Source: a virus. From it: 27,603 bases of DNA. The notes beneath the pieces were generated by a model, which was not told the DNA's origin, did not search any database, and saw only the letters and a program-made list of their open reading frames with translations. This document shows positions 291-26,242 of this stretch, piece by piece. Both the position numbers and the translations under genes were made by a program. Location of the stretch: the IMG/VR virus record IMGVR_UViG_3300010885_039772, positions 1-27,603 of that record; one strand, written 5' to 3'. Numbering within the stretch: the stretch's first letter is position 1; each line of letters begins with the position of its first letter.

Positions 291-550
291 TGTTTCCTGA
301 TGAACAAATGCAGGCAACGTGGGAACGCTACTGCGAGATCGCGGACAAAATCGACGCCGGCCGCGCCACACGCCAGCAATTGCCGCACTCCCGCGACCTG
401 CAACTCACGACGCGATTCAGCCCCGCAACCGGCAACCCATACCGCACGTTCATCTTCCGTGCGATGCTCGGCGCTCCCATGATTGAGATCCCTCTCGTTC
501 TTGCCATCGCATACGTTCAATACGTTGAGCAGCACGCCATCACCGAATGA
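290..550 (+). CDS. Hypothetical protein between the terminase genes
   Basis: An 86-aa protein of unknown function. I start it at ATG 290, which overlaps the preceding stop and has a GGAGG ribosome-binding site at 278-282; an upstream TTG at 287 would add one residue. The C-terminal third contains a moderately hydrophobic stretch (IEIPLVLAIAYVQYVEQH), too short and interrupted for a confident membrane helix. Its stop overlaps the large-terminase start (ATGA at 547-550), so it is translated as part of the packaging operon. In T7 the equivalent slot between the two terminase genes holds lysis accessory genes (18.5/18.7), but I see no spanin signature here. Confidence 0.6.
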   Translation: MFPDEQMQATWERYCEIADKIDAGRATRQQLPHSRDLQLTTRFSPATGNPYRTFIFRAMLGAPMIEIPLVLAIAYVQYVEQHAITE

Positions 551-2496
551 CCACCCACAACATCCCGCTGAACCAGTCCGTCCTCGCGTACCTGCGTGAG
601 CTCGGGCCCGGTCCAGCGCTCGCCGCCCTGCGCGCCAGCTACACGCTCTTCGTCCGCGCGTACTGGGAGTCGGCGAAGATCACCCCGCGTCTGTGCCGCG
701 CCGACATCGAGATGGTCAAGCTCGTTGAGCACGGGCCCGACAACATGGGCATCCTCGCCCCCCGCGGCGTCGGCAAAACCAACATCGTCGGCGCGACACT
801 CCCGGCCTACTCGTGGTTCTGCAACCCCGAGACTCGAGTCCTCATCCCCAGCAAGTCCAGCGAGCACGCCACCGCCGTCACCAGCCTCGTCAAGAACCGA
901 CTCGAAACCATCGAGTTCCTTCGCTACCTCGCCCCGCGCGAAGGCCAGAAGAACACCGAGAAGATGTTCGACGTCGGCGGCGCCAGCAAGCAGGTCGCCA
1001 AGAGCATGAAGGCCGTCGGCATGACCGGCCAGATCACCGGCTCCCGCGGCCACGTCATCATCCCTGACGACGTCGAGACGCCCCAGAACACCCTGACCCT
1101 CGAGGCCCGCGACCACCTCGAGCGCAACTGTTCCGAGCTCGCCGCCCTGATCTACATCGTCGATGAGTCCGACCAGATCAACGCCGCGGACTACGACCCC
1201 CGCATCGGCTTCCAGGCCCAGGCCGACGGCATCCGCCGCCGCATCGTCTATCTCGGCACCCGCCACCACGACACCGACTGCCTCTACGACCGCCTCGCCC
1301 GCAAGGGATACCGCTTCTACACCATCCCCCTCCTTTACCCCGAGCTCTCCGAGATCAACGACTTCGAAGGCCTCGCCCCGTTCATCATCCAGGACCTGCA
1401 GGAAGGTCGCGCCAGCCCCGGAGACATCGTCTTCAGCCCTCGCATCGGCCCCAAGCACGTCGCCACCCACCAGGCCGAGGGACGCCGCTACTTCGACATG
1501 CAGCAGATGCTCCGCAAGAACGTCGGCGGCAGCTTCAAGAACCCCCTCCGGCTCGACGACCTCATCGTCATGCCCGTGGACGCCCACTCCGCACCCGTCA
1601 GCGTCACATGGGGCACCCGCGACCACAACGGCTCCACCGCCCTCGACGACATCCCCACCATCGGGCTCGGCTCAGAACGCCTCCACCGCCCCATCGCCAT
1701 CGACAAGGACCGCCTCCCCTACCAGCGCAACGTCGCATGGCTCGACCCCGCAGGACTCGGCTCAGACGAAATGGCCTGCGCCTCCGTCGGGCTCCTCGCC
1801 GGCCGCTTCCACGTCAAGGGCGTCAAGGCCGTCCACGTCAAGGACTTCATCCCCCACGACCTCGCCGAAGGTCAGACCGCCTCAGCCCTTGACCGCGCCC
1901 TCGACCAGATCGTCCTCTTCCTCCGCAACACCGCCACCCGCGAGCTCTTCTGGGAAGACAACATCGACAACGTCGGCGCCTTCGGTTCCGCCATCACCCA
2001 CGCCATCCACCGCCACACCCTCGAGCCCGGCCAGGACCCCATCTTCCCCGACGGATGGTCGTGCCGATGCACCCCCGTCCACTCCAACGCCCTCAAGATC
2101 ACCACCGCCGGCGGCGACACCCTCCACAACGCCCCCAAGAACGCCAGGATCATCGCCGTCCTCGAGCCACTCCTCAGCCGCCACCGCATCGTCATCGACC
2201 CCAGCGCCCTCCTCCCGGACTCCACCAAGGAAGCCGACTTCCAGCTCCAACACCAACTCTCCCGACTCAGCGCCGAACGCAAGTCCCTCCGCAAAGACGA
2301 CCGCATCGACGCCCTCTCCTCCGCCATCGCCATGCTCACCGACGCCTTCACCACCAACCCAGACACCAGCCCGAAGCGACTCACCGACCGCGAAGCCCTC
2401 AAGGCCATCAAGAAACGCTCCATCCAGCGAGCCATCGAACGAGGGGCCTACACCCCAGACAGCGACTCCGTCTTCAAGCACCGCCGCACCCAATGA
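547..2496 (+). CDS. terL: Terminase large subunit (T7 gp19-like packaging ATPase/nuclease)
   Basis: A 649-aa DNA-packaging motor subunit, close to the usual length for T7-like TerL (about 590 aa plus extensions). The N-terminal ATPase has Walker A APRGVGKT at residues 71-78 and Walker B with catalytic acid VIIPDDVE near 170-177, the arrangement seen in T7 gp19. The LGTRHHDTD segment is the likely coupling region. The C-terminal RNase-H-like nuclease shows WLDPAGLGSDE near residue 400 and KDDRIDALSSAIAML near the end, supplying acidic metal ligands. It starts at ATG 547 overlapping the previous stop. It is the last gene of the late operon, as in T7; the next 1.16 kb is essentially non-coding. 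Confidence 0.93.
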   Translation: MTTHNIPLNQSVLAYLRELGPGPALAALRASYTLFVRAYWESAKITPRLCRADIEMVKLVEHGPDNMGILAPRGVGKTNIVGATLPAYSWFCNPETRVLIPSKSSEHATAVTSLVKNRLETIEFLRYLAPREGQKNTEKMFDVGGASKQVAKSMKAVGMTGQITGSRGHVIIPDDVETPQNTLTLEARDHLERNCSELAALIYIVDESDQINAADYDPRIGFQAQADGIRRRIVYLGTRHHDTDCLYDRLARKGYRFYTIPLLYPELSEINDFEGLAPFIIQDLQEGRASPGDIVFSPRIGPKHVATHQAEGRRYFDMQQMLRKNVGGSFKNPLRLDDLIVMPVDAHSAPVSVTWGTRDHNGSTALDDIPTIGLGSERLHRPIAIDKDRLPYQRNVAWLDPAGLGSDEMACASVGLLAGRFHVKGVKAVHVKDFIPHDLAEGQTASALDRALDQIVLFLRNTATRELFWEDNIDNVGAFGSAITHAIHRHTLEPGQDPIFPDGWSCRCTPVHSNALKITTAGGDTLHNAPKNARIIAVLEPLLSRHRIVIDPSALLPDSTKEADFQLQHQLSRLSAERKSLRKDDRIDALSSAIAMLTDAFTTNPDTSPKRLTDREALKAIKKRSIQRAIERGAYTPDSDSVFKHRRTQ

Positions 2497-3475: not shown

Positions 3476-3498
3476 TGACAATCCATTGTCATTAGGGG
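3476..3498 (+). promoter_or_regulatory. Candidate promoter or operator for phage RNA polymerase, site 1
   Basis: TGACAATCCATTGTCA (3476-3491) is a 7-bp-arm dyad followed by TTAGGGG. The other copy of this element (26219-26242) starts 6 nt after the phage RNA polymerase stop and reads TGACAATGGATTGTCA then ATAGCGG. In rightward register the two agree as TGACAAT..ATTGTCA.TAG.GG. The ending resembles the CTATAGGG initiation end of T7-family promoters, and both copies point rightward into genes. The call as promoter is inference; a repressor operator would explain the dyad equally well. Confidence 0.4.
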
Positions 3499-3574
3499 TT
3501 GGGGAAGGGGGTTGATTGAGGGTTGAAAGCGGGGTAAAAGTGTGAAAAATGATGTAGGATAGACAGTTTTACTC

Positions 3575-3603
3575 TTGACAGGAACGGGGATGGTCGATAG
3601 TAT
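3575..3603 (+). promoter_or_regulatory. sigma70-type promoter of the early module
   Basis: TTGACA (3575-3580), a 17-bp spacer, then TAGTAT (3598-3603), the best sigma70-like promoter I find in the window. The predicted start near 3609-3611 would place the ATTCAAG hairpin (3610-3629) at the very 5' end of the transcript. It drives rightward genes from 3655, probably as far as the integrase, and fits expression by host RNA polymerase immediately after infection. Confidence 0.72.
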
Positions 3604-3609
3604 CTGTGT

Positions 3610-3629
3610 GTCGGGATTCAAGCCCCGAC
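3610..3629 (+). promoter_or_regulatory. ATTCAAG-loop leader hairpin, copy 1
   Basis: GTCGGG (3610-3615), loop ATTCAAGC (3616-3623), CCCGAC (3624-3629): a perfect 6-bp stem with an 8-nt loop. Then follows a short A-rich linker and ribosome-binding site GGAGCATC (3643-3650) before ATG 3655. This is the first of five leaders with the same loop and the same GGAGCA motif. It sits exactly at the predicted transcript start. Confidence 0.65.
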
Positions 3630-3654
3630 GGCATCAAACACAGGAGCATCGGCA

Positions 3655-3993
3655 ATGAAGAATCAGGTGTGTGCGGCGGATGGGTGGTCGGTCGGGTGCA
3701 TGACTGGGCATAGCGTTCCCGATGGCATGGTTCAGGTGAACGTCTGCCGGTGGATGCGGAATGACTATCGGTCGATGGTGAAGATCCCTGAGTATGGGCA
3801 GTTCATGACGCGAGAGGCCTACGAATGCCTGTGCTTGGAACGTGGCTATACCCGCCCGTTCTTCCCGCGTGCGAATGCTTACTACAAGATCGCCAATTGG
3901 TTCAGTTCTGAGCGGATGCGGGTTGAGCTGCGGCGCTTGTCGCGCAGGCTTGGCCGCGATGTCTCCGCGGCGGAGCTGGGTTGGTCGGTGTGA
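3655..3993 (+). CDS. Early protein of unknown function
   Basis: A 112-aa protein, first gene after the early promoter. I do not recognise its family. The sequence mixes Cys (five residues, mostly in the N-terminal half), aromatic residues (YYKIANWF) and a basic C-terminal helix (ERMRVELRRLSRRLGRD). It lacks a signal peptide or membrane segment. The start at ATG 3655 is set by GGAGCATC upstream and the structured leader. First-expressed genes of T7-like phages often encode host-takeover proteins, so a role against host defence or transcription is possible, but nothing in the sequence proves it. Confidence 0.72.
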   Translation: MKNQVCAADGWSVGCMTGHSVPDGMVQVNVCRWMRNDYRSMVKIPEYGQFMTREAYECLCLERGYTRPFFPRANAYYKIANWFSSERMRVELRRLSRRLGRDVSAAELGWSV

Positions 3994-4003
3994 TGATCTT
4001 CCT

Positions 4004-4055
4004 GCCCCCGATGTTGACGCATCGGCGGGCGGTTTCCTCGGATTCAAGCCCGGGG
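4004..4055 (+). promoter_or_regulatory. Tandem hairpins with ATTCAAG loop, copy 2
   Basis: Hairpin A: CCGATG-TTGACG-CATCGG (4008-4025), extended by GCCC (4004-4007) and GGGC (4027-4030) around one bulged C. Hairpin B: CCTCGG (4036-4041), loop ATTCAAGC (4042-4049), CCGGGG (4050-4055) with one G-U pair. GGAGCATC follows before ATG 4084. The stem sequence differs completely from copy 1 while loop and ribosome-binding site are conserved, the pattern of a selected RNA structure. Confidence 0.65.
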
Positions 4056-4083
4056 GTATCGAAACACTTTTGGAGCATCAAAA

Positions 4084-4695
4084 ATGACGAACACAAAGCG
4101 CGAGTTCTCTGCATTGTCTGACACAGAACGCCAGAAAATTGGCGAAGCTCTTTGGAGGCGAGAGTCTCCCCGGTGTCAGTCTTCTCTTGTCGGTGAGCTG
4201 GTGAGCGAGAATCGGGATGGCTTTGGGATTGACGACATCATCAACCTGACTCCCGATCCTTCGGATTGGTCTATCGTCAATTGCCGGGAGTATCTGCGCG
4301 ACATCGGCGTAGGCTCGCCCGACCCGGACCCGTGGTCGATGGATCGGGCGGCGCTGGTGGAGGCTTTGGAAGGGGCGTCGATTGACTCTAACGATGACGA
4401 ATCCGACGACGTTCTGCGGGAGGCCGTGATCGTCAACATCGACGATGAAACGATCGATGGATTGGAGGAATGGCGCGACGCCGTGCGCGACAAGGGGGAA
4501 TCTGCGGAAGTCTATGAATGGTGGGAAGTCGGTTCATGGTTGGCAGAGCGCCTTGAAGCCGAAGGGGAATGCGTGATCCGCAATGGCTACGGCGATTGGT
4601 GGGGAAGGTGCTGCACGGGACAGGCGGTCTATCTGGACAACGTGATTCAGGAGCTTGGGTACGAGTACGCGTATTGGGCGCTGGAAGACAAGTGA
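4084..4695 (+). CDS. Strongly acidic early protein, unknown function
   Basis: A 203-aa protein with about 48 Asp/Glu against about 19 Lys/Arg, so strongly negative overall; acidic runs occur around residues 100-120 (SNDDESDD, NIDDETIDGLEEW). The C-terminal part is rich in Trp, Tyr and Gly (GYGDWWGRCC, YEYAYWALED). No family recognised. Phage early proteins with this charge include DNA mimics such as T7 Ocr, which block host restriction and defence enzymes. That analogy is based on charge and gene position only. Translation is preceded by the tandem-hairpin leader and GGAGCATC. The alternative is an ordinary soluble accessory protein. Confidence 0.75.
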   Translation: MTNTKREFSALSDTERQKIGEALWRRESPRCQSSLVGELVSENRDGFGIDDIINLTPDPSDWSIVNCREYLRDIGVGSPDPDPWSMDRAALVEALEGASIDSNDDESDDVLREAVIVNIDDETIDGLEEWRDAVRDKGESAEVYEWWEVGSWLAERLEAEGECVIRNGYGDWWGRCCTGQAVYLDNVIQELGYEYAYWALEDK

Positions 4696-4706
4696 TTTCA
4701 ACACTT

Positions 4707-4753
4707 CGCCCGGGCGGGAACGTTCGGGCGGGGCTTCCCCGATTCAAGTGGGG
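4707..4753 (+). promoter_or_regulatory. Tandem hairpins with ATTCAAG loop, copy 3
   Basis: Hairpin A: CGCCCG (4707-4712), 12-nt loop, CGGGCG (4725-4730). Hairpin B: CCCCG (4737-4741), loop ATTCAAG (4742-4748), TGGGG (4749-4753), closed by a G-U pair. AAACAGAGGAGCACATC then leads to ATG 4777. This copy has the weakest hairpin B, but the loop sequence is exact. Confidence 0.6.
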
Positions 4754-4776
4754 CAACACAAACAGAGGAGCACATC

Positions 4777-5433
4777 ATGCAATTGACGGAAAAGTATCGG
4801 CCAAACACGTTGGATGAGGTGGTTGGACAGGATAAGGCGGTGGCGACGATTCGTCGGCGCATAGAGGCCGGCGGATTCGGCGGGCGGGCAGTGTGGATCT
4901 CCGGCGCGTCGGGCGTGGGCAAAACTACGCTCGCCCGGATCATCGCGGGGACGCTGGCCGATCCGTTTTTCGTGGGCGAGTTTGATTCGGGCGCGGACCT
5001 GAGCGCCGCGGACCTGGAGGGGATAGAACGGTCGATGTGCCTCACAGCCTGGGGGAAGGGCGGCCGCGCCTACATCATCAACGAAGCTCACGGGCTGACA
5101 TCGCGGGCGATCCAAAAGCTTTTGGGGCTGCTCGAACGCATTCCGGCCCATGTGGTGTTCGTGTTCACGACGACGAAGGACGGGCAAGAGCAGTTGTTCG
5201 GCGACGACATCGACGCGGGCCCGTTGCTAAGTCGGTGCATTCCGATCGCGCTCACGAATCAGGGCTTGGCCGAATCCTTCGCCCGTCGCGCTCTGGATAT
5301 CGCCCGGGGTGAAGGGTTGGACGGACAGCCGATCGAGCGGTATGTGAAGCTCGCGCGGGAGTGCAAGAACAACATGCGCACCATGCTCCAGAAGATCGAT
5401 GCTGGGGTGATGATCGCGGGGGGTGGAGCTTGA
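4777..5433 (+). CDS. AAA+ ATPase resembling a DNA polymerase clamp loader
   Basis: A 218-aa P-loop ATPase of the DnaX/RFC type. It begins with the clamp-loader signature LTEKYRPNTLDEVVGQ (residues 3-18), has Walker A GASGVGKTT near residues 44-51, a Walker-B-like YIINEAHG segment and a sensor/arginine-finger-like LLSRC. Clamp loaders place sliding clamps on DNA using ATP. At 218 aa it lacks the C-terminal collar domain that makes the pentamer in normal DnaX/RFC subunits (usually over 300 aa). It is therefore a minimal AAA+ module that might hijack, replace or poison host loader subunits. It lies in the early module, far from the phage replication genes at 14.5-16.6 kb. I recall similar short proteins in planctomycete genomes and phages, unverified. 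Confidence 0.8.
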   Translation: MQLTEKYRPNTLDEVVGQDKAVATIRRRIEAGGFGGRAVWISGASGVGKTTLARIIAGTLADPFFVGEFDSGADLSAADLEGIERSMCLTAWGKGGRAYIINEAHGLTSRAIQKLLGLLERIPAHVVFVFTTTKDGQEQLFGDDIDAGPLLSRCIPIALTNQGLAESFARRALDIARGEGLDGQPIERYVKLARECKNNMRTMLQKIDAGVMIAGGGA

Positions 5434-5690
5434 AATACATCATCATCGAAGTTCAAGAGGTCACGATTATGCGGCGCTGGCGGCACATTGTTGAGGCCGA
5501 TTCTGTGGAGGACGCGCGGGAACAGTGGGCGTGTGGGCTTGCTGAGCTGGTTTCAGACGGCGACAACATCGGAGACGAGGATTACGGGAAGTCCGGTGTT
5601 GCAGTCGCGCCGGCGGATGAGAACGGCGAACCGCCCGCCGGCACAGATTGGACGGATCTGGCGTTTGAAGATTTCCATAGCCGAGTTTGA
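5430..5690 (+). CDS. Small acidic hypothetical protein
   Basis: An 86-aa protein if started at TTG 5430, overlapping the preceding stop; the alternative ATG 5469 gives 73 aa with AGAGG about 11 nt upstream. I prefer TTG because the extra KYIIIEVQEVTI completes a beta-strand pair with MRRWRHIVEADS. The VEADSVEDAREQW segment matches the strand-turn-helix pattern of many small phage proteins whose Glu-Ala-Asp-Ser turn precedes a helix. The second half is acidic (DGDNIGDEDYG). Function unknown. Confidence 0.6.
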   Translation: MKYIIIEVQEVTIMRRWRHIVEADSVEDAREQWACGLAELVSDGDNIGDEDYGKSGVAVAPADENGEPPAGTDWTDLAFEDFHSRV

Positions 5691-5697
5691 ACACTGC

Positions 5698-5746
5698 CGC
5701 GCCCGGGACACTGGGCGCGTCGGATTCCGGCATTCAAGCGCCGGGA
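5698..5746 (+). promoter_or_regulatory. Tandem hairpins with ATTCAAG loop, copy 4
   Basis: Hairpin A: CGCGCCC (5698-5704), 8-nt loop, GGGCGCG (5713-5719), a perfect 7-bp stem. Hairpin B: TCCGGC (5726-5731), loop ATTCAAGC (5732-5739), GCCGGG (5740-5745), six pairs including one terminal G-U and extendable by T-A. GGAGCATC (about 5750-5757) directly precedes ATG 5759. Confidence 0.65.
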
Positions 5747-5758
5747 ACAGGAGCATCT

Positions 5759-6142
5759 ATGCGAACTGACAAGGAAAAGCGGGCGGCGCGTGTGGCGCTG
5801 CGGGACCAACGGGACCAGTCAGAAACGGCAATCGACGGCGCGGCCGCGGCGCTCGCCCGGGTGGTGTGCCCCGACGCTGATGAGCTGCGGGCGGGGATGG
5901 ATGGGTGGTCGCTCTCCATGCGAATCCGGGCCGGTGTTGCGACCGATGCGGAGCTGCGGCTTGCCGATGCCGCGGGCGAGCTGCTGAAGGCGCTGAAGGG
6001 CATCATCGACTACGCCGACCGCGACATCGGCGAAGTTGAAGACTTGACCAGGCTAGGGGATGATCGCTCGGAACTGGAGGAGGCTTTGGGCGCGCTTGCG
6101 TTTGCCTACGCCGCCATCGCCCGCGCAGGGGGTGCGGCGTGA
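5759..6142 (+). CDS. Alanine-rich helical early protein
   Basis: A 127-aa, mostly helical protein rich in Ala, Asp and Arg. The N-terminal 30 residues are very polar and charged (RTDKEKRAARVALRDQRDQSE), followed by long amphipathic helices (ELRLADAAGELLKALKGIIDYADRD). No family recognised. The start at ATG 5759 is fixed by GGAGCATC immediately upstream. Its end overlaps the next gene (GTGA at 6139-6142), so the two are probably co-translated. Confidence 0.68.
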   Translation: MRTDKEKRAARVALRDQRDQSETAIDGAAAALARVVCPDADELRAGMDGWSLSMRIRAGVATDAELRLADAAGELLKALKGIIDYADRDIGEVEDLTRLGDDRSELEEALGALAFAYAAIARAGGAA

Positions 6143-6366
6143 ACACCATGAAAGCCATTCAAGAGATCGAACGGATGTACAGCCACGCCCGAAGCCTGCG
6201 GGCCGCGGGGCTTGCTTGGATGCAGGAGGGGACACACCCCAACCGATCGGGCAACGTGGGCGAGGATTGCAGGATACTCGGGTGGGACAATCCTGATCAG
6301 CTCATTCGGGCCGCCGATTCGATCGAACGCGAGGCCGCGATGACGCGGGTTTGTCTCGGAGTTTGA
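6139..6366 (+). CDS. Small hypothetical protein
   Basis: A 75-aa protein starting at GTG 6139, overlapping the previous stop by 4 nt; an internal ATG at 6148 would remove three residues. Predicted largely helical (KAIQEIERMYSHARSLRAAGLAWM), with a middle HPNRSGNVGEDCRILGW turn region. No recognised domain. It is the last gene of the leader-hairpin series before a 165-nt gap rich in secondary structure. Confidence 0.6.
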   Translation: MNTMKAIQEIERMYSHARSLRAAGLAWMQEGTHPNRSGNVGEDCRILGWDNPDQLIRAADSIEREAAMTRVCLGV

Positions 6367-6367
6367 C

Positions 6368-6480
6368 GCGCTTGCCCGGGTGAGAATCCGGGCGGCGCAT
6401 TGAAAAGGGCCCGTCGCCCCGATTGCTCGGTTCAAGCGGCGAAGGGCCCAGGAGCACCAGGGCGCTGGCGAACCAGCGCC
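6368..6480 (+). promoter_or_regulatory. Structured leader with TTCAAGC, copy 5, plus extra hairpin
   Basis: Three consecutive hairpins. A: GCGC-tt-GCCCGG (6368-6379), 8-nt loop, CCGGGC-g-GCGC (6388-6398). B: GGGCCC-g-TCGCC (6407-6418) pairs with GGCGA-a-GGGCCC (6438-6449). Its interior holds a small CCGA/TCGG stem (6419-6430) and then TTCAAGC (6431-6437) directly before the 3' strand, as in the other copies. GGAGCACC follows at 6451. C: GGCGCTGG-CGAA-CCAGCGCC (6461-6480), a perfect 8-bp stem. Unlike the other copies no start codon follows GGAGCA; the next gene begins at 6532 with its own GGGAG. Confidence 0.6.
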
Positions 6481-6531
6481 GACGGCACGGGCCGAGTGTA
6501 GGCAGACTGCGAATCCGGGCGGGAGATCCCC

Positions 6532-6762
6532 ATGAGCAAACCAACGGGACCGATCAATACATCCAAGTCAAAGGGCGGCCGGCCCGCATTGCCACCCGAG
6601 GAGCGGGTGAAGTTCTGGGGGGTCTACGTCGATGCGTCGCTGCGCCCCGAGGCCGATCGCTTGAGGGCGATGCTCAGTGCGAATCCGGGCAGCCAAGTCA
6701 CATGGTCCGCAGTCTTTGCCACCGCGATTCGTGAGTCGTTGAAGAAGCGGGAGTCCCGATGA
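6532..6762 (+). CDS. Small DNA-binding-like protein upstream of integrase
   Basis: A 76-aa basic protein with a KGGRPALPPEERVKF start typical of small DNA-binding proteins, where GRP resembles an AT-hook-like minor-groove element. A predicted strand-helix-helix region follows (VKFWGVYVDASLRPEADRLRAM ... TWSAVFATAIRESLKKR) that would fit a ribbon-helix-helix fold. Its stop overlaps the integrase start (ATGA at 6759-6762), so it is co-translated with it. Position suggests an excisionase/directionality factor or a regulator of int. Ribosome-binding site GGGAG lies about 7-8 nt upstream. Fold and role are inferred. Confidence 0.68.
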   Translation: MSKPTGPINTSKSKGGRPALPPEERVKFWGVYVDASLRPEADRLRAMLSANPGSQVTWSAVFATAIRESLKKRESR

Positions 6763-7922
6763 ACACACCCATCACGTCGTTCGGAGTCAGCTCCAACGGA
6801 GCCTACTGGCAGTTTTGGTACATTGACCCCGAGACGGGCAAGAAGCACCAAGAGGGGTTCGGCGCCAAGGCCGAGATGAGCGATCGCGCGGTCAAATTCA
6901 AGGCCCGGGAGCGTGCCGCCGAGCTGGGTGGCAACGTCGCGCGCGGCAAGGACGCCAAGGGCCCCACCGTCAGCATTTACTCCGAGCGCTGGCTTGGGCT
7001 CGCGTGCGCAGGCGTGGCGCGGACAACCGAGGCGAGCCTCACCCGTTCCGTGGCGGTCTTCCTTGAGTTTCTGGCCAACCCCAACCGGCGAATGGGCAGC
7101 GTCAAGCCCTCCGACGCAGAAGACTTTCGGGCGTGGCTCCTCGAGCGCACCGCCGAGGCCGATGAGGACGACGACGAGGAGCGGGCCACATGGTCGCCGT
7201 TCACCGTCAGCAGGTTCCTCATGCACGTCAAGGCGATGTTCGCCAAGGCCGCGGCCGAGCGAGCGATCAACATCGACCCGTTCATGCATGTCCCGGGCAT
7301 CGGCGCCAAGGCCGACACCGCATGGGAGTACATCCCCGTCGCGGCGCTGGCCAAGCTCACCGAGAGCAGCCCCGACGCGGCATGGCGGGCAGCGTTCATG
7401 CTCACCCGGCTCGCGGGCCTGAGGATCAACGAGGCCCGCAAGGTGGCGTGGTCCGACATCGACTGGACCAACCGCACGCTGATCGTGTTCCCCGCCGGCC
7501 GCAAGCAGTCCACCGTGCAGAGCACCAAGCGCCGGCAGCGGATCGTGCCGCTCGTGCCCGAGCTTTACACGTTCCTTCGGGGCGCTTTCGACGAGGCTCC
7601 CGCGGGCGAGCGTGGGCCGCTGGCAGGGTTCCCGCGCAACAACGTCTATCGGATCGTCGCCGGGATTCTCGCCAAGGCCGGACAGAGCCCCGTGCGGCCG
7701 TTCCACGACCTCCGAAAGTCCCGGCAGACCGATTGGATGGGTACCTACCCTGAGCCCGTCGTAGCGGCTTGGATGGGGAACAGCGTGGGCGTGGGCCGCG
7801 AGTTCTACTTCCAGGTCACCGACCAGCACGTCGCGAGCGCAACGTGCGCGCAACGTGACGCGAACGTTACGCAGCAGAGCCCGAATCCGCCTTCCCCAGA
7901 TCCTACCCAGAAAGACCAGTAA
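6759..7922 (+). CDS. int: Tyrosine site-specific integrase
   Basis: A 387-aa tyrosine recombinase that would integrate the phage at a tRNA gene. N-terminal region (about 1-70) is beta-rich and could bind arm sites; a SAM-like core-binding domain (about 75-180) follows; the catalytic domain is C-terminal. Catalytic residues visible: R222 in GLRINEAR, H316 and R319 in FHDLRKS, and nucleophile Y350 in EFYFQVTDQH. The usual second His of the GHS box is Asn (WMGNS, N341), a variant I recall in integrases of this type. The gene overlaps the upstream small DNA-binding gene, and its stop is only 42 nt before the tRNA-Thr fragment, the standard int-attP arrangement. The last codons contain three direct repeats of GCGCAACGT type. 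Confidence 0.93.
   Translation: MNTPITSFGVSSNGAYWQFWYIDPETGKKHQEGFGAKAEMSDRAVKFKARERAAELGGNVARGKDAKGPTVSIYSERWLGLACAGVARTTEASLTRSVAVFLEFLANPNRRMGSVKPSDAEDFRAWLLERTAEADEDDDEERATWSPFTVSRFLMHVKAMFAKAAAERAINIDPFMHVPGIGAKADTAWEYIPVAALAKLTESSPDAAWRAAFMLTRLAGLRINEARKVAWSDIDWTNRTLIVFPAGRKQSTVQSTKRRQRIVPLVPELYTFLRGAFDEAPAGERGPLAGFPRNNVYRIVAGILAKAGQSPVRPFHDLRKSRQTDWMGTYPEPVVAAWMGNSVGVGREFYFQVTDQHVASATCAQRDANVTQQSPNPPSPDPTQKDQ
7837..7867 (+). repeat. Three phased direct repeats in the 3' end of int
   Basis: GCGCAACGT at 7837-7845, GCGCAACGT at 7848-7856 and GCGAACGT at 7860-7867, spaced 11 and 12 bp, about one helical turn. They lie about 100-130 bp from the tRNA fragment. Tyrosine integrases commonly use directly repeated arm-type sites near attP, so these are candidates. 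They overlap coding sequence, and GC-rich codon use could partly produce them. Confidence 0.45.
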
Positions 7923-7964: not shown

Positions 7965-8002
7965 GCCGCCTTAGCTCAGTGGTAGAGCAACGGTTTTGTA
8001 AA
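7965..8002 (+). other. attP: attP core: 5' half of tRNA-Thr(UGU)
   Basis: Bases 7965-8002 match the first 38 positions of a bacterial tRNA-Thr: acceptor 5' strand GCCGCC, D arm TTAGCTCAGTGGTAGAGC, then the anticodon 5' stem and loop with TTTTGTAAA. The match ends just past the anticodon loop; the following bases cannot make the anticodon 3' stem, T arm or acceptor 3' strand, so this is not a functional tRNA gene. Lying 42 nt downstream of a tyrosine integrase, it is the expected identity block shared by attP and attB, with crossover in or before the anticodon loop. It carries the 5' rather than the more usual 3' half. Confidence 0.85.
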
Positions 8003-8107
8003 GCGTCGGCACCGTCGCAGACCGTCGCCACACCCCGCGCCATTCGCTCAAAACGCCACTCTCCCAACAAAAACCCGACCGTCCGCGACGCTCCGTGACA
8101 GTTCGCT

Positions 8108-8124
8108 TTCCCCAAGTTGGGGAA
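8108..8124. repeat. TTCCCC/GGGGAA dyad, copy 2
   Basis: TTCCCC-AAGTT-GGGGAA, the partner of the dyad at 2957-2973, differing only in the 5-nt spacer. Both copies are followed by G. It lies about 105 bp beyond the attP core in non-coding DNA. Confidence 0.45.
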
Positions 8125-8509: not shown

Positions 8510-8744
8510 ATGCGCTCCCAAAGGCTTTCTCTGTGATCATGAGAAAGCCGTTGATCAGGATCATGCCGAGCCAGAGCAGCGCGAAGAACCCGACCACGCA
8601 CGCGGGCACCACGAACAGCAGCGACCAGCTAGAGCTTTGCACGATCCAGACGCACACCGCCAGCACGCACGCCGACGGAATCGCCTGGATGCCGACCATC
8701 ACGAGCCCGAACACGAAGTCGGCAAGCCGTTCGAACAGTCTCAT
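8508..8744 (-). CDS. Small two-helix membrane protein in the lysogeny operon
   Basis: A 78-aa protein, mostly hydrophobic with two predicted membrane segments (about residues 10-32, FVFGLVMVGIQAIPSACVLAVCV, and 38-66, SLLFVVPACVVGFFALLWLGMIL). Its ATG at 8744 (complement) overlaps the repressor stop as ATGA, with AAGGGG upstream; a GTG two codons earlier is an alternative. It would therefore be expressed with the repressor in lysogens. Membrane proteins in this position often exclude superinfecting phages or modify the lysogen, but this is inference. The stop codon uses the A/T run of the terminator at 8472-8509. Confidence 0.7.
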   Translation of the reverse strand: MRLFERLADFVFGLVMVGIQAIPSACVLAVCVWIVQSSSWSLLFVVPACVVGFFALLWLGMILINGFLMITEKAFGSA

Positions 8745-9403
8745 ACCCACCCCTTTCGATGCTGGATCATTTTGCCGAGCTGCGTGATGTGCTCGGTGGC
8801 GATGCTGATCTCTCTGTGCGCCGGGTTGATCTTGACGATGCGGGTGGTCGCGCCGTCGGGGAACCAGCGCCCGACAGTGCAGCCCGGGTGCTTGGCGTCA
8901 TCGCCGACGCGGACGAACACGACGTCGCCGGGTTCGAGCGTGTGCCGCGGCCGCGGCGTCGTCATCGGCGCGAAGACGAGGATGTCACTCTCGCGGATGG
9001 CAGGAGCCATCGAGTCGCCGACCACGCGCACGGCGTAGAGCTCGCCCTCGCGCGTCAGAGCGTCGCGATCTTCGTAGGCAAACGCATCGTGATACTCGCC
9101 GCCCGCAAACTGGGCATGGTCGTAAGGCATGACCTGGCCAGCGGGCCCAGCGTTGATGACGGGGATTCCGGGCGGCGCGGGCCGATCGTGGACCTTGGAG
9201 GCTCGCCAGCGGGCATCGAACTCATCCAGCGACAGCCCGAACACCTCAGCAAACCTCAACCGTTCGGGGGGCTTGATCGAGATGTCGCCGCGCTCTTTGC
9301 GGGAAACGGCCGCGTGCGTCAGCTCCATCCGTTCAGCGAGATCCCGCAGCGTCCAGCCACGCTCTTCCCGCAGCTTCCTGACCAATTCGCCGATCGCGGG
9401 CAT
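8741..9403 (-). CDS. CI/C2-type phage repressor (XRE HTH plus S24 domain)
   Basis: A 220-aa repressor. Residues 2-62 form an XRE helix-turn-helix (ELVRKLREERGWTLRDLAERMELTHAAVSRKERG); residues about 120-215 are a LexA/CI-like S24 domain with the nucleophile Ser131 in VVGDSMAPAIRESD. A possible Ala-Gly cleavage site lies in NAGPAG (84-89). The usual catalytic Lys of the TVKR-type motif reads TVGR (Gly178), so self-cleavage may be impaired. I start at the ATG at 9403 because the HTH begins there; a frame upstream to 9472 exists but runs through the control region. It should keep the lytic operons at 9.5 kb silent and is transcribed leftward, opposite to the rest of the window. Confidence 0.88.
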   Translation of the reverse strand: MPAIGELVRKLREERGWTLRDLAERMELTHAAVSRKERGDISIKPPERLRFAEVFGLSLDEFDARWRASKVHDRPAPPGIPVINAGPAGQVMPYDHAQFAGGEYHDAFAYEDRDALTREGELYAVRVVGDSMAPAIRESDILVFAPMTTPRPRHTLEPGDVVFVRVGDDAKHPGCTVGRWFPDGATTRIVKINPAHREISIATEHITQLGKMIQHRKGWV

Positions 9404-9545
9404 GGTCAAACCATAGACATATCTAGTTACCAAAGAAACTTTTCTTGGCGTAAATAGTGGAGTGTCAACCATTTGGAAGTCTAGCGGATACTTCTGGGTA
9501 CGGAAAGTGCGGAAAAGTTACCGATTAGCCGATAGACTGTTCACC
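9404..9545. promoter_or_regulatory. Divergent control region with candidate operators
   Basis: The 142-bp gap between the leftward repressor and the rightward RHH gene. Candidate operators: GAAGT-9 nt-ACTTC (9476-9494), central in the gap, and AGTT-8 nt-AACT (9425-9440). The word AGTTACC recurs at 9518-9524. A TTGACA hexamer lies on the minus strand (9463-9468) toward the repressor, but its -10 is poor. For the rightward direction TAGACT (9533-9538) could be a -10, again without a good -35. Weak promoters are usual where regulators act. The assignments are tentative. Confidence 0.45.
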
Positions 9546-10135: not shown

Positions 10136-10169
10136 TTCAAGTTCATCAAACCCAAGGAGTTTCACATGG
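10135..10169 (+). repeat. Duplicated translation leader, copy 1
   Basis: This 35-bp block, including AAGGAG and the ATGG start of the next gene, matches the block at 11561-11595 at 28 of 35 positions without gaps. The shared core is GTTCATCAA, then AAGG-G-GT-TCACATGG. The proteins downstream are unrelated, so the similarity is in the leader itself. It differs from the ATTCAAG hairpin leaders of the early module. Confidence 0.55.
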
Positions 10170-11489: not shown

Positions 11490-11561
11490 GGCGGGGTAGA
11501 GCAGCAGTAGCTCGTCTGGCTCATAACCAGAAGGTCGGAAGTGCAAATCTTCCCCCCGCTA
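11490..11561 (+). tRNA. tRNA-Met-like (CAU anticodon), atypical
   Basis: Folds as a 72-nt cloverleaf: acceptor GGCGGGG with CCCCGCT (six pairs plus G-U), D stem GAGC/GCTC with a short AGCAGTA loop, perfect anticodon stem TCTGG/CCAGA with loop CTCATAA (anticodon CAU), variable AGGTC, and T stem GGAAG/CTTCC. The T loop is TGCAAAT instead of TTCAAAT and the D loop has AG in place of GG, changing both sides of the elbow contact. CCA is not encoded. The anticodon stem lacks the three G-C pairs of initiators, so it could be elongator Met or a lysidine-modified Ile tRNA. Non-standard elbow bases make full function uncertain. Confidence 0.75.
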
Positions 11562-11595
11562 TTCAGGTTCATCAATTCAAAGGGGTATCACATGG
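11561..11595 (+). repeat. Duplicated translation leader, copy 2
   Basis: Partner of 10135-10169 (28 of 35 positions identical). It begins at the last base of the tRNA-like sequence and ends in the start codon of the small membrane protein gene. It includes AAGGGG as ribosome-binding site. Confidence 0.55.
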
Positions 11596-23668: not shown

Positions 23669-26212
23669 ATGATCATCGCAGACACCACCATCCTTCCGAC
23701 CGACAGCGTGTTTGACGTGCAGGCCAAGGTCGAGGCAGACGCCATCGACCGAGGGCGCCGCCGGTACTGGGAACAGATCGGCGACGAGCTCGCACGCAAC
23801 GTCGCGGGCCTGTCTGTGCACCAGCAGGTCATGCGGATGTGGGAAGCCGACATGCGCGGCGCCATGGTGGCCGTCAAGGCCAACCTGCGCGACGCCGACA
23901 CCCCGACTGAGGGCTCGCACCTCTACGGCCCGTACATCCTGGCGACGCCATCCAAGCGACTGGCGATGATCGCGATGGTCGAAGCGATCGGTGCGTGCAT
24001 CGAGAACCCCGCGGGCGCGAGCTGGAACAAGACATGCGCCACCATCGGCCGCGCCGTCGTCGCCGAACTCAACCTCAAGCACGCCAGCAGCCAGAAGACC
24101 ACGCAGACATCGCGCAACGGCACCGAGCGGATCGTCAGCAAGGCTCAGATCATCCGCCGCAGGTACAAGCGCCTTCGCCCGGTCCACATCAACCAGCTTT
24201 CAAAGGCGATGCTCGATGATCCGCTGGACCCGGCCTACGAAACCATCGTCCGCATCGGCGACGTTCTGCTTCACAGTTTGGTGTTCAACGCGATCGTCCC
24301 CATCAAGGCGGCGTCCCCGAGCGGCAAGGGCACCATCGTCAAGGCGTTTGAGCGACGCCTGCGCAAGATGAAGACCCGCAGCGTCTATCGCCTCCACTTC
24401 CGCGACGAGATGTACGGGCTTCTGGGTGCGCTCCACGACCAGGCATCAGGCCGCAGGCCCGTGAACCCGCCGATGGTGCACGAGCCGAACACATACAAGC
24501 TCGCCGATGGAAAGATCATGGCCGGCGGCTATGACACCATCCGTCAGCAGGTGGTGCTCAACATGCGAAGCCGCCAGCGATCGGCGCTGGAATCGACCGA
24601 CGAAGCGCCGTTCTGGCACGGGCTTTGGGCCGTCGGCACAGCCGCCAACTGGCGAGTCAACCGGCGCGTGCTGCGCGTCTACGAGAACCTGATTGGCGAC
24701 GGCGTGGCCATTCCCGGCGTCCCATCGCGTGAAGCCCCGTCGATGACACCGATCCCGTTGGAGTACGACTACGACGCCGAGGATCCTTGGCACCGCGCCC
24801 CCGACGAGGTGAAGTACAAGTTCCGGCGGGCGCGCAAGGAGGACTACCAGAAGCACGCGGCATGGCTGGGCGAGCGCGAGGTGTTCCGCGGCGTCAGGGA
24901 ATCGATCAAACTCTGGGAGTCGTTGCGCGAGGCCGGATGGGACAAGCAGTGGACGCCGTACAACTTCGACTCCCGCAACCGGGTCTACCCCGCGATGCGC
25001 GGACTCTTCTACCAGGGCCCCGACTTCAGCCGCGGCCTTTGTGAGTTCGGCACCGGCAAGGATTGCACGGGCGAGCGTGCGCGGGTGTGGCTCAAGCGTC
25101 ACGTCGCGGCGCTCTTCGGGCAGGACAAGGAGTCGCTGACCTACCGCGAGCAGTGGGCCGACGATCACATGCACGAGATTGAGAAGGTCGCCGCCGACCC
25201 CGAGGGCACGTTCGACTTCTGGAGCAAGGCCGACGGCGGGGACACGTCATGGCAGGCGCTGGCGGCGTGCTTCGCGCTGACCGACCCCGAGGCCGCGGCC
25301 CACTTCCCGATCACGCTGGACGGGACCTGCAACGGGCTCCAGCACTACGCGGCGCTCGCACGTTGCCCTGAGACGGCGGCGCTCGTGAACATGATACCGG
25401 CGACCGAAAACCAGAAGCCCGGCGACGCCTACACGGCGCTTGTGGGCCCGGTGTCGAGGATCGTGGGGCAGGACGCGATGGACGGCAACCCGGCCGCGCA
25501 GAGGCTTGTGGGACTCGTCGACCGCGCCCTCGTGAAGCAGCCGTTGATGACGACCTTGTACAACGTCACCGACCGGGGCATGAGGGCGCAGATCCTCAAG
25601 ACCCTCAAGAAGCGGATCGGCGACGATCGGCACGCATACGAGTCGGCGGCGTACATGGTCCAGGTGGTTCGAAGAGTGCTGACGAGCCAGTTCCCGCGTC
25701 CGTTCGCGGTGCTCGGGTGGCTGGAAGCGTCCGCGCTTGCAATCGCCCGCGCCGGGTACGCCGTCGGGTGGAACACGCCCTTGATGTTCCCCGTCGAGCA
25801 GCCCTATTTCAACAGCCGAGAGACGACGGTCAAGAGCGTGAGCGGCACGTTGTACCTGAGGGTGCGGGATGAGGTCCGCGGCGTGAACGCCCGCAAGCAC
25901 GCGCGCGGGTGCCCGCCCAACTACATCCACTCGCTCGACGGCACCCACAACCTGATGAACGCGATCGAGTGCGTGAAGCGAGGTGTGATGTACGCCCCGA
26001 ATCACGATCTGGGGGCGACGCACGCGAGCACCGCCGACAGGCTCGGCGTCATCGTGCGCCAGCAGTTCGCCGCCGAGCACACGCCGAATCTCCTGCATGA
26101 CCTGTGGCGCCAGTGGACCACGCGTTATCCGGACGTTGAGATCCCGGACCCGCCGCTTCAGGGGGAGTATCAGGTGGGCGACGTGATGCACAACCCCAGC
26201 TTTTGGAGCTGA
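23669..26212 (+). CDS. T7-type single-subunit RNA polymerase
   Basis: An 847-aa DNA-directed RNA polymerase (T7 gp1 is 883 aa), which would transcribe the late genes from phage-specific promoters. All core motifs are visible. The NFDSRNRVYPAMRGLFYQG segment matches the T7 DWRGRVY region. Motif A is PITLDGTCNGLQHYAAL with catalytic D551. Motif B is RALVKQPLMTTLYNVTDRGMR with K623. Motif C is NYIHSLDGTHN with D757. The C-terminus is FWS, comparable with the T7 FAFA end. Between B and C a region (about 715-745) corresponds to the specificity loop. The N-terminal domain is diverged but of normal size. GAGGAG precedes ATG 23669. It lies directly before the structural genes, as in phiKMV-like phages rather than T7. 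Confidence 0.93.
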   Translation: MIIADTTILPTDSVFDVQAKVEADAIDRGRRRYWEQIGDELARNVAGLSVHQQVMRMWEADMRGAMVAVKANLRDADTPTEGSHLYGPYILATPSKRLAMIAMVEAIGACIENPAGASWNKTCATIGRAVVAELNLKHASSQKTTQTSRNGTERIVSKAQIIRRRYKRLRPVHINQLSKAMLDDPLDPAYETIVRIGDVLLHSLVFNAIVPIKAASPSGKGTIVKAFERRLRKMKTRSVYRLHFRDEMYGLLGALHDQASGRRPVNPPMVHEPNTYKLADGKIMAGGYDTIRQQVVLNMRSRQRSALESTDEAPFWHGLWAVGTAANWRVNRRVLRVYENLIGDGVAIPGVPSREAPSMTPIPLEYDYDAEDPWHRAPDEVKYKFRRARKEDYQKHAAWLGEREVFRGVRESIKLWESLREAGWDKQWTPYNFDSRNRVYPAMRGLFYQGPDFSRGLCEFGTGKDCTGERARVWLKRHVAALFGQDKESLTYREQWADDHMHEIEKVAADPEGTFDFWSKADGGDTSWQALAACFALTDPEAAAHFPITLDGTCNGLQHYAALARCPETAALVNMIPATENQKPGDAYTALVGPVSRIVGQDAMDGNPAAQRLVGLVDRALVKQPLMTTLYNVTDRGMRAQILKTLKKRIGDDRHAYESAAYMVQVVRRVLTSQFPRPFAVLGWLEASALAIARAGYAVGWNTPLMFPVEQPYFNSRETTVKSVSGTLYLRVRDEVRGVNARKHARGCPPNYIHSLDGTHNLMNAIECVKRGVMYAPNHDLGATHASTADRLGVIVRQQFAAEHTPNLLHDLWRQWTTRYPDVEIPDPPLQGEYQVGDVMHNPSFWS

Positions 26213-26218
26213 GGCTTG

Positions 26219-26242
26219 TTGACAATGGATTGTCAATAGCGG
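26219..26242 (+). promoter_or_regulatory. Candidate promoter or operator for phage RNA polymerase, site 2
   Basis: TTGACAAT-GG-ATTGTCAA (26219-26236), a perfect 8-bp-arm dyad, followed by TAGCGG, beginning 6 nt after the RNA polymerase stop. Its 16-bp core is the exact reverse complement of that at 3476-3491; in rightward register the right flanks also agree (TAG.GG). No T-run follows, so it is not a classic terminator. Its position just before the structural genes is where a late promoter is expected. Confidence 0.4.

Follow-up and report, generated by a model that had tools for sequence, protein, structure and literature searches.

A small hairpin with a constant loop and a stem that changes in sequence while remaining paired, here termed hairpin B, was identified ahead of each of four coding units belonging to a single operon in a virus contig (27,603 bases; G+C content, 63%), the whole of which was analysed and is called the window below. 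Judged from its sequence, hairpin B looks like a selected RNA signal for which neither Rfam nor the open-licence literature holds a described family, in agreement with the original prediction on both counts. That prediction listed five sites, each with GGAGCA(Y)C downstream of the loop motif and, in copies 1 to 4, with a start codon soon after. All five sites are present (Table 1). Copies 1 to 4 are simple 22-nt hairpins with stems of 5 to 7 bp and the common loop ATTCAAG(C/T); the GGAG lies 12, 15, 10, and 3 nt past the end of the hairpin, respectively, and the ATG lies 8, 8, 6, and 5 nt past GGAG. GGAGCAY is common to all five leaders, but the C expected next is missing in copy 3.

Table 1. 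Features of the operon and other genes of the window referred to in the text
Feature	Position	Strand	Remarks
Large terminase	547-2496		
Sigma-70-type promoter	3575-3603	+	TTGACA-17-TAGTAT; predicted transcript start about 3608-3610
Hairpin B, copy 1	3609-3630	+	Loop ATTCAAGC; 7 bp, the outermost a G-U
Ribosome-binding site, copy 1	3643-3650	+	GGAGCATC
ORF behind copy 1	3655-3993	+	112 aa; no family found
Hairpin A before copy 2	4003-4030	+	
Hairpin B, copy 2	4035-4056	+	Loop ATTCAAGC; 7 bp, two G-U
Ribosome-binding site, copy 2	4072-4079	+	GGAGCATC
ORF behind copy 2	4084-4695	+	203 aa; phrog_26364 (unknown function)
Hairpin A before copy 3	4703-4734	+	13 bp
Hairpin B, copy 3	4735-4756	+	Loop ATTCAAG(T), ATTCAAGT; 5 bp
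Ribosome-binding site, copy 3	4767-4773	+	GGAGCAC
Clamp-loader (DnaX/gp44-like) ATPase, behind copy 3	4777-5433	+	218 aa
Hairpin A before copy 4	5694-5723	+	
Hairpin B, copy 4	5725-5746	+	Loop ATTCAAGC; 7 bp
Ribosome-binding site, copy 4	5750-5757	+	GGAGCATC
ORF behind copy 4	5759-6142	+	127 aa; weak phrog_1273 (unknown function)
Hairpin A before copy 5	6367-6399	+	GAGA loop
Divergent copy 5	6407-6449	+	Branched structure, TTCAAGC in junction
GGAG motif, copy 5	6451-6458	+	GGAGCACC; no nearby start codon
Tyrosine integrase	6759-7922		
S24-type repressor	8741-9472	−	
T7-like RNA polymerase	23669-26212		Second-ranking match, N4-like polymerases

Copies 1 to 4 are not chance occurrences, as judged from their stem scores. 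TTCAAG occurs at 25 sites and GGAGCA at 21 sites on both strands of the window, and both are found in all five leaders; nowhere else in the window does TTCAAG lie shortly upstream of GGAGCAY. When the 25 TTCAAG sites were scored for flanking stems, copies 1, 4, 2, and 3 ranked on top (18, 18, 17, and 13; next site, 11), and these scores are attained by only 0.4%, 0.4%, 0.6%, and 2.7%, respectively, of random positions. A covariance model run over the window gave above-chance sites only at these four leaders. In local folds, the loop is predicted to be unpaired (0.88 to 0.99) and the GGAG partly open (0.24 to 0.64).

The stems show the compensatory changes expected of a selected RNA structure. 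Among copies 1 to 4, the stem strands are 14 to 57% identical, whereas the loops are 88 to 100% identical. With all four copies set in a single fixed register, pairing is seen in 26 of 28 cells (92.9%) compared to 67.9% with the 3' letters shuffled, and two-sided changes were identified at five of the seven stem pairs. Exchanging the 3' strands among the copies always lowered the pairing (26 for the strands' own assignment and at most 23 for any other); such shuffle counts are not probabilities, since there are only four sequences, possibly related by duplication. In copies 2 to 5, folding is better on the sense than on the antisense strand, and for copies 2 to 4 the folding z values are about −3.0, −3.0, and −3.3 for the sense strand versus −1.7, −1.1, and −0.9 for the antisense strand, a bias to which the A hairpins described below partly contribute. 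The G-U pairs of B2, B4, and A3 become A-C mismatches in the opposite strand, which, together with the folding bias, points away from a DNA hairpin and to a coding-strand RNA. Copy 1 alone is not clearly beyond its shuffles (z of about −0.75 to −1.4). With stems compensated in this way, the case for an RNA element is unusually strong, considering that it comes from a single genome.

Copy 5 is a divergent or vestigial member, so that the predicted variable stem with a constant loop holds for copies 1 to 4 and not for copy 5. Its TTCAAGC lies beside an inner CCGA-UUGC-UCGG hairpin within a long GC stem and not in a hairpin loop, its covariance model score is at chance level, and the downstream gene at position 6532 has its own GGAG. 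The surrounding region (6364 to 6530) is GC rich, has several strong hairpins (z of about −4 for 6364 to 6500) and no assigned gene, and could be an independent structured RNA. The GC hairpins (hairpins A) predicted upstream of copies 2 to 5 were found at all four, separated from the following copy by linkers of about 1 to 8 nt, so that A and B almost touch. Copy 1 has no hairpin A, and its hairpin B begins at the predicted sigma-70 transcript start, as had been proposed. The layout is thus modular: B belongs to the gene downstream and A to the unit upstream, each unit consisting of B, a Shine-Dalgarno sequence, one or more genes, and A. Considered as intrinsic terminators, hairpins A are absent from the list of terminator-like sites.

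Gene content marks the uncultured virus as a temperate T7-like phage, with RecE/RecT-like genes and a DnaB-like helicase gene encoded in addition to the genes in Table 1. The operon starts with the promoter, B1, a Shine-Dalgarno sequence, the 112-aa ORF, A2, B2, a Shine-Dalgarno sequence, and the 203-aa ORF; continues with A3, B3, a Shine-Dalgarno sequence, and the clamp-loader-like ATPase gene with a coupled small ORF; and ends with A4, B4, a Shine-Dalgarno sequence, the 127-aa ORF with a coupled small ORF, A5, copy 5, a 76-aa ORF, and the integrase gene. The promoter matches 10 of 12 consensus positions, and the region holds three such sites, with 1.8 expected. The 20-base TGACAATSSATTGTCAWTAG, which contains a palindrome, is present in exactly two copies (3476 to 3495 and 26220 to 26239), one 80 nt upstream of this promoter and the other right behind the RNA polymerase gene, and is a candidate for either a promoter of the phage polymerase or an operator of the repressor. 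The designation of these genes as early in the original prediction was not established: the operon lies behind the terminase gene and ends in the integrase gene, adjoining an attP-like site; in a tRNA-integrated prophage its place would be at the integrase end; and its promoter is of the host type, preceded by a palindrome that may serve as an operator or as a promoter for the phage polymerase.

Some further sequence elements were identified in the window. A probable attP, consisting of the 5' half of a tRNA-Thr gene, lies past the integrase gene (7966 to 8003). In the genome collection it has exact matches only in five candidate-phyla (CPR) genomes, the phage polymerase is absent from all five, and an integrase search in a 380-genome sample of that candidate phylum gave weak matches only. 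Related GCGCAACGT repeats, one at the terminase end (2499 to 2536) and one next to attP at the integrase end (7836 to 7873), are possibly integrase arm sites, and the small palindromes TTCCCCAAAGTGGGGAA and TTCCCCAAGTTGGGGAA lie in the two noncoding regions, past the terminase gene (2957 to 2973) and past attP (8108 to 8124). A second shared leader, TTCARGTTCATCAA followed by a ribosome-binding site and CACATG, precedes two genes (10136 to 10168 and 11562 to 11595; 81% identity over 37 nt); one copy lies behind a long hairpin, and the other has a complete tRNA-Met gene in the place of that hairpin.

Searches beyond this genome gave no counterpart of the element. The sole Rfam match in the window at the gathering threshold was the tRNA at position 11490, and no match was obtained for positions 3550 to 6560 up to an E value of 5. 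A scan of IMG/VR with a loose leader pattern gave only chance matches among the matches listed, and two stricter patterns matched 2 and 23 stretches, all of them without a GC-rich stem and likewise regarded as chance matches. Among the IMG/VR records open to the scans, no close relatives were found via the polymerase, DnaB helicase, TerL, or integrase, and all of the evidence therefore comes from one genome. The clamp-loader relatives were two AT-rich contigs (53% identity), and the element is absent from both. In a DNA search of a phage collection, the operon region was unmatched and single leaders gave chance matches only. Of the checks proposed for the element, a covariance model combined with a search of relatives, the first singled out copies 1 to 4 in the window, but the second found no relative with the element.

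The nearest described situation is that of the SAS and ESAS of cluster K mycobacteriophages (PMC3203893), which likewise recur in front of many nonstructural genes of a temperate phage and include an inverted repeat just before the ribosome-binding site and start codon. In ESAS, however, the half-sites are conserved, and because the changes do not support RNA pairing, the authors favoured DNA-binding sites (PMC3203893); hairpin B combines a constant loop with half-sites that have diverged without losing their pairing. The leaders have (A/T)GGAGCAY with other flanks instead of the SAS consensus GGGATAGGAGCCC (two mismatches at most, next to the start codon), and they have 7-nt half-sites of 14 to 57% identity instead of the conserved 17-bp half-sites of ESAS. 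The consensus of strong T4 RegB sites is GGAGRAYARAA (PMC3014915), but a C follows GGAG in all five copies. Integron attC core sites (RYYYAAC and GTTRRRY) were not noticed in the leader sequences when read by eye.

The two kinds of hairpin might instead bracket the ends of transcript units, A forming the 3' end and B the 5' end of each, with a cut at or in A that would leave mRNAs starting with B. We regard this as unlikely, but it accounts for the A/B layout better than a trans-acting factor does: the units run from B through the Shine-Dalgarno sequence and gene(s) to A across short linkers, the A hairpins reach 11 to 13 bp, and copy 1, which would need no cut, lacks A and has B at the predicted transcript start. 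It does not account for the constant loop, and linkers of this length would leave very little room for single-strand cleavage. The RNase III sites of the T7 early region, to which the original prediction had compared the element, are also structured RNA between the genes of a T7-like phage, but they are long irregular hairpins that are cut by RNase III and have no constant loop. Since the 5- to 7-bp B stems are short for an RNase III substrate, and since such sites require no constant loop, this role has become less likely for hairpin B; the longer A hairpins could be cut by RNase III. The other proposed roles of hairpin B, a protein-binding site or 5'-end protection, are plausible from the sequence. 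It is rather improbable that these are ordinary leaders copied by common descent, each a stable hairpin with a strong ribosome-binding site and without a specific reader. GGAGCAY, present in all five, could have been inherited together with the hairpin, but simple descent does not predict stems that are 14 to 57% identical and still paired under loops of 88 to 100% identity.

The promoters of the N4 virion RNA polymerase share the evolutionary pattern of hairpin B, in that the stem bases vary but remain complementary in front of phage genes while the loop and adjacent bases are conserved (PMC4496689), and the T7-like RNA polymerase of this phage has N4-like polymerases as a secondary match. 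It is nevertheless very unlikely that hairpin B is a DNA hairpin promoter of a single-subunit RNA polymerase. N4 promoters are DNA elements with a 3-nt loop and a fixed distance to +1 (PMC4496689), whereas hairpin B has RNA signs and a loop of 7 to 8 nt, and past it lies no fixed conserved start region but spacers to GGAG of 12, 15, 10, and 3 nt that differ in sequence. The template strand of copy 2 mispairs owing to its G-U pairs, no copies precede genes elsewhere in the window, and the repeated 20-mer TGACAATSSATTGTCAWTAG makes a better candidate for a promoter or operator. Even less probable is mimicry of the tRNA T arm, in which UUCAAGY would imitate the T loop and have TruB, TrmA, or another tRNA enzyme as its reader. 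The tRNA T-loop consensus is UUCRANY, and all five copies fit U54 U55 C56 R57 A58 N59 Y60 (UUCAAGC in four and UUCAAGU in one), the sole variable loop base (C/T) being Y60; the resemblance is notable. The closing pair G53-C61, however, is missing in all of them (A-C or A-G in copies 1 to 4; copy 5 is not closed), leaving a loop of 8 nt or, in copy 3, one of 7 nt in another register.

Our preferred reading of hairpin B is a 5' untranslated region hairpin whose loop would be read by a trans-acting factor that jointly controls the translation or stability of the operon, a possibility that we rate a little short of probable; the factor itself, its identity, and its action as a repressor or an activator are what we infer. 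A constant loop on a freely changing stem argues for a reader of the loop, as a plain stability hairpin would need none, and the sense-strand bias and the proximity of the Shine-Dalgarno sequence make trans-acting control of translation or stability the best reading. On the sense mRNA, hairpin B would act in cis from the untranslated 5' stretch ahead of each of the four coding units; the recognised part would be the constant loop AUUCAAGY, and presenting it would be the sole task of the stem, whose sequence drifts with pairing kept. An RNA-binding protein encoded by the phage is the most likely factor; it would bind the loop beside the GGAGCAY ribosome-binding site and set the translation or lifetime of the genes of the four units jointly. 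The distance from hairpin B to the GGAG downstream, 3 to 15 nt, places the hairpin at the upstream limit of the expected 30S footprint or partly within it; so variable a distance is loose for a steric repressor.

A precedent is the T4 gp43 operator, a hairpin with a conserved loop near the ribosome-binding site (PMC3014915). The hairpin of the T4 and RB69 gp43 operators lies upstream of and reaches the ribosome-binding site, and its loop bases are key determinants; it differs in being a single copy that serves autoregulation of one polymerase gene, whereas hairpin B has several copies in one operon and another loop. A hairpin with a constant loop near the ribosome-binding site, as in phage translational operators, is present here, and domain and family searches of the operon recognised no candidate regulatory protein and no RNA-binding domain among its small proteins. 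An AlphaFold model of the 112-aa product of the first ORF was unusable (pLDDT, 41.6). As to pairing of the loop with RNA in trans, the exact antisense of ATTCAAGC is absent from the window. Seven loop nucleotides (TTCAAGC) have their complement in GCTTGAAA (5428 to 5435), which covers the start of the small coupled ORF (position 5430); this may be chance.

Temperate T7-like phages have been recognised only recently, LUZ100 being a precedent of a T7-like phage with an integrase, and the control described for them is transcriptional, by the phage polymerase and a repressor (PMC10134795). More tentatively, hairpin B could define an undescribed phage RNA regulon, in which a loop-specific hairpin in front of several genes of an integrase operon would allow a phage RNA-binding protein to switch the set posttranscriptionally. 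If true, this would provide a new RNA-protein (or RNA-enzyme) pair and would add a posttranscriptional layer to the control of temperate T7-like phages.
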